From Actinomycetes bacterium (GTDB lineage: Bacteria > Actinomycetota > Actinomycetes > Nanopelagicales > Nanopelagicaceae): DNA of 63,627 nucleotides. The notes below the pieces were generated by a model. It was not told the origin of the DNA and did not search any database. It worked only from the letters and a program-made list of their open reading frames with translations. The position numbers and the translations under genes were made by a program. Of the stretch, positions 11,201-12,801 are shown in pieces; position 1 is the first letter of the stretch; every line of letters begins with the position of its first letter. The stretch covers positions 1 through 63,627 of the forward strand of contig JANYDL010000102.1 of assembly GCA_025363635.1 (NCBI GenBank). The letters run 5' to 3'.

Positions 11201-11335
11201 ATGGTCGATAGGTCGAGTTTGGGATGCAAGTGATGCAACAACCTCAGGCAACCATGTCGCGCCATCGTGAACTACAAGAATGGCAGTTACGCGCGGTTGA
11301 TCGATTTCAGGTGTGCTCACTGCGCTCTGCCACAT
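8282..11335 (-). CDS. Giant membrane glycosyltransferase, GT2 domain plus polytopic and extracytoplasmic domains
   Basis: 1017 residues. The N-terminal GT-A fold (about 15-260) has VTAILVVHDGATWLPEVV, an HDD metal-binding site in WLIHDDCAPQPG, and the later FRDDVDFGWR acceptor motif. It is followed by roughly a dozen hydrophobic segments, a soluble region (about 780-980) and a final TM helix with a basic tail. This layout is known in actinobacteria beside DUF5719 but the product is not established to my knowledge. Donor and acceptor are unknown; neighbouring manB and manC make GDP-mannose a reasonable guess for a precursor. The start codon is uncertain (ATG 11335 or GTG 11320, neither with a strong ribosome site). 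Confidence 0.85.
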   Translation of the reverse strand: MWQSAVSTPEIDQPRVTAILVVHDGATWLPEVVASLASQTRPIDHTLVVDTGSTDASSKLLKNARLASISMERDTGFGAAVAKAVLSLPESDSESEWIWLIHDDCAPQPGALEALLDAVSERPHVAVAGPKLLGWYDRTHLLEMGLSIAGNGARWTGMEPREYDQGQHDGIHEVLSVSTAGALIRRKVFQELEGFDSNLELFRDDVDFGWRAHVAGHTVIAVSAAVAFHAEASATERRNVDVKGALLNRPLILDRRNAAFVLLANSSWWMLPWLAFQLFFGSAVRSLGYLLAKLPGYASDEFLAVALLLIRPAKLWEARKRRKRERLISSRTVIRFIPPRWSQLRLGFARVVESLRKTILSSPRDSGSVLDVPNEEEDLLTPSTPLRWRTAFRRPEVAGSAFLLFFVSMWSTHRYGALSGGALEMPPFGASDLWREYGQSWHQIAMGSSSSTPPWILILAIGSTLYMGKAIAFMAFFFWVAPLLMALSVYFLLRRFSQNSWLVVSASLAYAISPVSIASINSGRLGTIVALIVAPRIVSYLPRFIQIETATWRMIFGVSLLISILTSFSLLGYLGMFAVSMVGVARDLVEYKRSSNKKLFVNRVQRRLALALIPFLLCLPWSFEALLHPSRFLLEPGLLIESGVPNFTLLANPGGPGSLPWWVISPITFILFVSAFSTAKVRRYSNLGIFFILISVMLSAFSMNGHGSSSNVRIWTGTLLAFATIASLCAGVIILDGLRQRLASVRFHYRHILGGIVIASTLLYVITASGWAITTSAKGPVQANRNQVLPAFLAVTPGVKTLVMRNIGDQEVPSFFIARERDAVLGDADLAPKNSPVVILAVRQLVDGSGIASSRILASFGIKYLYALNPANPQLVRSIDGLGGFVRMSSTQSGIAWKISGISDRLVFTGAKGDAQAMPTLAESAQGTTPSAGTVSLAENFDSGWQIIQGAQHLVRVKNQYGLPQFQSTAGGKFILIHDGTKRRAWLALELLVFLTVLLMALPSGKRKRDVSQEEMQ

Positions 11336-11367
11336 CCGTCAGTCATCATCGACTGCCCAATGAAAAA

Positions 11368-11643
11368 CTACGCTGGACGGCGCTTAAGGCGTCGGCGCTC
11401 TCGTTCAGATAATCCACCCCAGATTCCAAAGCGCTCATCATGGGCGAGGGCGTATTCCAAACATTCTGATCGAACATCACACGACATGCATACACGCTTT
11501 GCTTCGCGGGTAGAACCACCTTTTTCTGGGAAAAAGGCTTCGGGATCTGTCTGGGCACAGAGCGATCGCTCTTGCCAAGAAAGTTCGATCGTTTCGCCGC
11601 TTATTAATTGAATGGTTGGGCCGTTGGGTCGAATATCTGGCAC
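11368..11643 (-). CDS. whiB2: WhiB-family iron-sulfur transcriptional regulator (WhiB2/WhmD-like)
   Basis: 91-residue Wbl protein that binds a 4Fe-4S cluster and acts with the principal sigma factor; WhiB2-type members control septation. Cluster ligands C29, C52, C55 and C61 are all present, followed by the G[I/V]WGG turn GIWGG at 73-77 and a basic C-terminus ERERRRLKRR. GTG start at 11643 with GAAGGAG upstream. Position next to manC and upstream of manB matches the whiB2 locus of other actinobacteria, although the F420 gene fbiA that usually accompanies it is missing. It has its own promoter with a palindrome (11725-11753). Confidence 0.93.
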   Translation of the reverse strand: MPDIRPNGPTIQLISGETIELSWQERSLCAQTDPEAFFPEKGGSTREAKRVCMSCDVRSECLEYALAHDERFGIWGGLSERERRRLKRRPA

Positions 11644-11724
11644 TCGGATACTCCTTCATAACTTCAGTCACATGACGATCAGTAACTATCGGACCAAACT
11701 CGCTTACGCGAATTCACTACACGA

Positions 11725-11753
11725 ATTACACGCGTGTAATGCCTCTAAGTCAA
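11725..11753 (-). promoter_or_regulatory. whiB promoter with a 16-bp palindrome over the -10 box
   Basis: On the minus strand TTGACT (11753-11748), a 17-base spacer and TGTAAT (11730-11725) form a near-consensus vegetative promoter, 5 of 6 matches in each box. A perfect 16-base palindrome, ATTACACG/CGTGTAAT (11725-11740), covers the -10 box and the adjacent spacer, the place where a dimeric repressor would block RNA polymerase. The predicted leader is about 75 bases and ends in the ribosome site of whiB. Confidence 0.7.
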
Positions 11754-11793
11754 GTCAGGATGGGATGAATTTTTTCTTTACGCAACAAGATTT

Positions 11794-12801
11794 TCACGCT
11801 ATAAGAGCGGTAACCCCATCACGCCCGACATAGGCATGACTCAAATGTGACCCAGAATCAACGGTCGCCCCCTCAGCCACAAAACATTTTGTCAGTGTCA
11901 CATTTCTCAAAACAATTGCATTACTACTAATTATTGAGCCCTCCATCTTCGCTCCATCGCCGATACTCGCGCCTCGACAAACTGAGGTTCCTCCTGAGAG
12001 TTGGGCGGATGGACTGATTATCGACCCCTCCATTGCAAGATAGTCACCCATGTGTCGGTCAAGATTTAAAGAATCTAGAGCAGCAGATCGCGATGTACCA
12101 GCGACAAGGTCACTTGAACCTTGAAGCAAAGTTTGCGGGGTTCCAATATCGATCCAATATGAGCGGTCGATATATCCATATATTTTTCTTCTACTCTCGA
12201 TGAGCTGAGGAAATATATCTCGCTCGATGCTCACAACTTGTTCGACCGGAATATCAAGAAGTACTCGTGGATTAAAAATATAGCAGCCTGCATTTATAGT
12301 GTTGGCTATTGGGTTTTCCATTTTCTCATTGAATGCACTAACACGTCCGTCCTTCCCGGTCGATACACAACCATAGGCTCTTGCATCACTGACTTCCGTT
12401 AAATGTAAAGTGACATCAGCATCCCGAGATTCATGCATCTCTATTTGCTTTGCAAGATTATGCGAACTTAAGACGTCTCCATTAAAAATTGCGATGTTTT
12501 CCAAGCCATTAAGAAATTTCGCAGCATTTCGAATTGCTCCTCCGGTACCCAAAGGTTCTGTCTCAACCGCATATTGAAGGTGGATTCCCCATCGAGAGCC
12601 GTCACCAAAATAAGGGATAAAAACTTCAGAAAGATAGGAAGCAGCCAGAACTATTGAGGTAATCCCGGCATCCTTTGCCGCCATTAATTGATGCTCGGTC
12701 ACGGGAAGTCCCGCAATCGGGAGCATCGGTTTTGGAACAGATCTTGTGAGAGGGAGCAGCCGCGTGCCCATTCCGCCCACGAGCAAAATCCCTTGTGTCA
12801 T
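11794..12801 (-). CDS. manC: Mannose-1-phosphate guanylyltransferase-like nucleotidyltransferase
   Basis: 335 residues. N-terminal nucleotidyltransferase domain with the signature GGMGTRLLPLTRSVPKPMLP near residues 9-28 and catalytic aspartate region FNGDVLSS; the C-terminus has left-handed beta-helix hexapeptides (about 250-335). This architecture is shared by ManC (GDP-mannose) and RmlA2-type enzymes of actinobacteria; proximity to manB and whiB2 favours the mannose assignment. ATG at 12801 overlaps the dapC stop, so it is coupled to a lysine gene, an unusual pairing of convenience. Confidence 0.85.
   Translation of the reverse strand: MTQGILLVGGMGTRLLPLTRSVPKPMLPIAGLPVTEHQLMAAKDAGITSIVLAASYLSEVFIPYFGDGSRWGIHLQYAVETEPLGTGGAIRNAAKFLNGLENIAIFNGDVLSSHNLAKQIEMHESRDADVTLHLTEVSDARAYGCVSTGKDGRVSAFNEKMENPIANTINAGCYIFNPRVLLDIPVEQVVSIERDIFPQLIESRRKIYGYIDRSYWIDIGTPQTLLQGSSDLVAGTSRSAALDSLNLDRHMGDYLAMEGSIISPSAQLSGGTSVCRGASIGDGAKMEGSIISSNAIVLRNVTLTKCFVAEGATVDSGSHLSHAYVGRDGVTALIA

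Follow-up and report, generated by a model that had tools for sequence, protein, structure and literature searches.

A perfect 16-bp palindrome in the whiB promoter of the window, the whole 63,627-nucleotide stretch of DNA analyzed here, is in all likelihood the operator of McdR (ResR, Rv1830 ortholog), a predicted site at which McdR would repress whiB by covering the -10 hexamer. Judged by its sequence, the palindrome is very probably the docking site of this known restrainer of cell division. The kind of operator appears to be a known one, whereas its register and lineage are new, and a second McdR-type site downstream of crgA was unexpected. In mycobacteria the McdR-whiB2 loop has a bearing on drug resilience, and it would extend to distant small-genome actinobacteria and to most of the class, with operator places 14 bp apart between lineages and the -10 letters re-used. 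It also predicts a division switch for lineages without genetics. The second conserved site, lying by DnaA-box-like repeats, could link McdR to replication.

The palindrome in the whiB promoter

On the minus strand the whiB promoter reads TTGACT-TAGAGGCATTACACGCG-TGTAAT. The palindrome, both hexamers and the 17-bp spacer lie exactly where the original prediction had placed them (Table 1). The promoter is absent from the output of our sigma-70 scan because the scan demands A at position 2 of the -10 hexamer. The palindrome is upstream of the expected whiB transcript start, and no Rfam match to an RNA element was obtained within 11300-11850. The gene belongs to the WhiB2/WhiB class by its Whib domain and because it is 83-88% identical to the top WhiB match in each of ten genomes found via named mycobacterial loci. 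These top matches are taken to be WhiB2 on the strength of class resemblance.

Table 1. Features of the whiB promoter region in the window
Feature	Positions	Strand	Basis or remark
Perfect 16-bp palindrome ATTACACGCGTGTAAT	11725..11740	none	sequence check
Candidate McdR-type operator, register O1, CATTACACGCGTGTAATT	11724..11741	-	motif scoring; 11/12 fixed letters of AATnACAnnnnTGTnATT
-10 hexamer TGTAAT	11725..11730	-	entirely within right operator half-site TGTnATT
-35 hexamer TTGACT	11748..11753	-	17 bp from -10
Register O2, AATTCGTGTAGTGAATTC	11710..11727	-	usual operator place in mycobacteria and the greater part of the class; 6/12, background level
whiB, WhiB2/WhiB class, 91 aa, GTG start	11368..11643	-	PF02467, 95.6 bits
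Sugar-1-phosphate nucleotidyltransferase, upstream neighbor, outside the operator	11794..12801	-	mannose-1-phosphate guanylyltransferase-like, below NCBIfam cut-off

Perfect 16-bp palindromes are expected by arithmetic at 4^-8 per position, or about one in a window of 63.6 kb. The symmetry alone is therefore unremarkable, and the case for the palindrome rests on its position and conservation. With up to three mismatches its sequence was found once in the window (0.19 expected) and at 8 sites in the genome, as against 1 for the reversed control. Six of the seven two- or three-mismatch matches elsewhere in the genome are inside open reading frames.

Match to the McdR operator

McdR/ResR (Rv1830), a MerR-family protein, represses whiB2 in mycobacteria through AATnACAnnnnTGTnATT, as established by EMSA and reporters; the 4-bp gap of this motif is needed, since spacer mutants abolish regulation (PMC9040748). 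For the M. tuberculosis whiB2 promoter, binding is reported to be sequence-specific with a dissociation constant of 0.33 ± 0.15 µM (PMC10336103). The sole mismatch between the 18-mer of the window and this motif is its outermost letter (C for A), and the gap of 4 bp is present as ACA-CGCG-TGT. The original prediction had suggested that the regulator may be one without an earlier link to genes of the WhiB2 type. That part finds no support, as the sequence is that of the published McdR/ResR operator and an McdR ortholog is encoded in the genome.

The genome of the window shares with the mycobacterial system (PMC9040748, PMC10336103) an 18-bp inverted repeat with a 4-bp gap, a whiB2-type target, overlap with the core promoter, and an orthologous regulator in the same gene neighborhood. 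Besides the first motif letter, and besides being predicted, the operator of the window differs in its place. In mycobacteria the left half-site is at the -10 and the right half around the start site, whereas in the window the site is 14 bp further upstream, with its right half-site on the -10. Because it has the right gene and core promoter but sits on the -10 rather than around the start site, we claim it as a positional variant and not as the mycobacterial arrangement.

Conservation and register

WhiB was searched in 100 genomes, including that of the window, of which 61 are from the window's family (f1) and 39 from other families of the class. Upstream DNA was extracted for every genome with a WhiB2 ortholog. 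Three f1 genomes in which this ortholog was not found (G030, G049, G059) were taken out of the promoter counts, leaving 58 promoters. Two registers were scored: in O1 the right half covers the -10, and in O2, which lies 14 bp downstream, the left half does.

All 58 f1 promoters retain the inverted repeat over the -10. By fixed letters of 12, O1 scored 10 in 6 genomes, 11 in 42 and 12 in 10, and O2 scored 3-8. In an offset scan of the same family the mean was 11.1 at O1, compared with about 0.8-5.5 at control offsets (-25 to +39). The operator letters T3, ACA, TGT and ATT are invariant. Variation inside the 18 bp falls on motif n positions 4 and 8, on n position 10 in two genomes, and on the outer AA, which is weakly kept in the left half. 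The columns between the -35 and the operator carry 0.2-0.9 bits, one G excepted. The original prediction had seen here a symmetric repressor operator of a WhiB2-type gene that may place a dimer over the -10, to be doubted if the palindrome was not conserved in close relatives and no protein bound it. The palindrome is conserved upstream of whiB in these relatives, which supports a predicted operator of this kind.

That the symmetry of the promoter letters arose by chance and serves no regulator has next to no probability. About one such palindrome is indeed expected per window, but the left arm TnACA never varies among the 58 promoters, and we know of no sigma factor that needs these letters. 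Moreover, the 14-bp core TTACACGCGTGTAA had 31 perfect copies among the matches listed, in a search of 60 genomes with at most one copy per genome, and all 31, when compared with whiB positions, sit upstream of whiB.

Outside f1 the register differs. Ten genomes chosen from 80 named mycobacterial mcdR loci all have O2 at 12/12 and O1 at 5-9, and it follows that the operator shifted register in the lineage of the window. For the other families of the class, 38 of 39 genomes were scored: O2 reached at least 10 in 29, O1 at least 10 in 17, and both in 10. G069, missed by the pattern, was left out of these counts, and its whiB has TGACACGCGTGTAA upstream; G097 was scored and counted as a miss, and the promoter pick there probably failed. 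O1 without O2 was found outside f1 in f5 (2/2), f3 (1/1) and f2 (1/1). On a short McdR tree of 142 columns, in which most forks are open, this distribution needs more than one register change, with 6 rows scored "weak" excluded from the change count. As far as sequence goes, the McdR-type operator is class-wide and its register is the feature particular to f1. In other families of the class, for example at L066, L073 and L090, the -10 letters TGTAATT are common to two McdR-type sites that overlap, and the downstream half is often CGTGTC, which includes the WhiA core in reverse.

Proposed mechanism and other readings of the site

A dimer of McdR would bind the half-sites AATnACA and TGTnATT across the 4-bp gap. 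The -10 hexamer itself makes up the right half-site, so that bound McdR would exclude RNA polymerase and lower whiB expression, and the WhiA/WhiB division programme would be held back. Mycobacteria and the greater part of the class carry the operator 14 bp downstream, with its left half overlapping the -10; in f1 it has been displaced one step upstream, and the -10 letters are still shared. By analogy with mycobacteria, we infer that McdR binds and represses whiB in the organism of the window, with occlusion as the mode. This register is unlike the experimentally proven one, and position-dependent regulation could therefore differ.

Activation of whiB by MerR-style promoter distortion is very unlikely. 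McdR belongs to the MerR proteins, among which activators dock on inverted repeats that lie between the -35 and the -10, and the site extends into the spacer. However, 55 of the 58 f1 promoters have a spacer of 17 bp, which is already optimal, while MerR activation uses 19-20 bp (PMC9040748). The dyad is about 2.5 bp from the start of the -10 and not in mid-spacer, and mycobacterial McdR is a repressor of whiB2. The 17-bp spacer and the dyad over the -10 thus favor simple polymerase exclusion by McdR.

A BldD-type (c-di-GMP) repressor operator has a slim chance. In Streptomyces, whiB is a reported target of BldD, the TNAC and GTNA half-sites of BldD are present here, and the genome of the window encodes a divergent BldD-like C-terminal domain (E 3e-9). 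The BldD box, however, is TNAC-N5-GTNA (PMC4151990) and the gap here is 6, so the site failed as a BldD box. In addition, the operator is found in genomes without a BldD-like_C match: G062, G063 and G064 have the McdR motif at 11/12 (O1), 12/12 (O2) and 11/12 (O1), respectively. The genome of the window has two such divergent BldD-like matches, at G000:C30:23684 and G000:C6:75187. A text search of a review of WhiB proteins (PMC6282962) gave neither "BldD" nor "whiB promoter".

Autoregulation by WhiA/WhiB through GACAC sites stands at equally long odds. WhiA is encoded in the genome and works with WhiB, the letters ACAC/GTGT are shared, and the downstream half that many members of the class have, CGTGTC, holds GACAC in reverse. 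Both arms in the window are TACAC and not GACAC, and the site was rejected as a WhiA site for this reason. WhiA binds an asymmetric site as a monomer (PMC3781837), so that a palindrome of fixed gap is not called for by WhiA, in contrast to the symmetric site found here.

The use of the site by another dimeric regulator, for example FtsR, is slimmer still as a prospect. Sequence alone does not name the bound protein and the gene for FtsR lies close to mcdR, but the FtsR motif AACCCTAAAGTAAAGGTTGAGGGTA (PMC6683498) is unrelated to the site, which fits the McdR motif at 11/12.

McdR and its gene neighborhood

The McdR ortholog of the window's genome is at G000:C6:19950-20459. It is a MerR-family protein by its MerR_1 helix-turn-helix (PF13411, 55.4 bits, cut-off 21.6) and is 64% identical to the protein of the Mycolicibacterium-like genome G063. 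The gene order is gcvH, FHA protein, FtsR (NF050798, 290 bits), BFN nuclease, small membrane protein, mcdR and gcvP; gcvH, the FHA protein and gcvP were named from reading of the translations. These surroundings match the conserved neighborhood cg1630-cg1633 described earlier (PMC6683498). Orthologs were found in 97 of the 100 genomes searched (E ≤ 1.2e-53) and not in G055, G067 and G083. The G055 promoter carries the operator, yet no mcdR ortholog was found in this assembly, which is 89% complete.

In 81 extracted McdR rows of the 97, the recognition segment YRQLDYW is identical, and the next A, R and T are present in 80, 81 and 81 rows, respectively. Since this segment is nearly invariant, the same half-site should be read. 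A PDB sequence search gave no structure of a close relative, the best match being a MerR-like protein (E 5.5e-6).

In mycobacteria, WhiB2 activates mcdR through cGACACGc. Of the 30 family loci L191-L220, 25 have a GTGTC/GACAC box in front of mcdR and the remaining five have GTGTT; the orientation of the box is opposite to the mycobacterial one. We infer from these sequences that the return arm of the loop, from WhiB2 to mcdR, may have its counterpart in the mcdR promoters of the family. The mcdR promoter (L171:5340-5400; L191-L220) also has a conserved palindrome, AACCTCTACTTGAGGTT, which is FtsR-motif-like and is followed by the CGTGTCG (GACAC) box.

A second McdR-type site downstream of crgA

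Other one-mismatch McdR-motif sites in the genome of the window are four. Three are in or at the start of coding sequence, as read, and look like chance; the fourth is directly downstream of crgA, at G000:C98:19961-19978 (L385, L406). A search with TNACANNNNTGTNATT led to a perfect McdR-type site that recurs directly after crgA across the class (family and class loci, L386-L475). In the family it scores 11-12 of 12 in 27 of 29 scored loci (33 given, 4 not placed), the misses being G046 and G057 of one genus; in the rest of the class at least 10 is reached in 27 of 38 loci. G035, of the same genus as the two misses, has a McdR-type site at G035:C1:1314491 (L398), between gyrB and a response-regulator gene. 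That this site is away from crgA suggests that crgA is not the gene served by the element.

Directly after the crgA-downstream site are DnaA-box-like paired repeats, with the f1 consensus AATTACACcggTGTAATTCTCCACAtgGTGGAtAActccTGTGGATAA in 31 of 33 loci and similar repeats in 25 of 38 loci of the rest of the class; as a control, 2.55 million positions in other loci gave 6 hits. The composite element is probably origin-proximal. A limited literature search found no report of a McdR-type/DnaA-box site downstream of crgA. We put forward tentatively, as an idea somewhat more apt to be wrong than right, that McdR has since ancient times coordinated division and replication throughout the class, by way of two kinds of site that are both conserved. 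These would be the whiB operator, its register shifted in several lineages, and the crgA-downstream composite, where McdR and DnaA would influence one another close to the origin. Overexpression of McdR in M. smegmatis raises the origin-proximal copy number (PMC9040748), and this rise would be explained if McdR and DnaA do act through the composite element.
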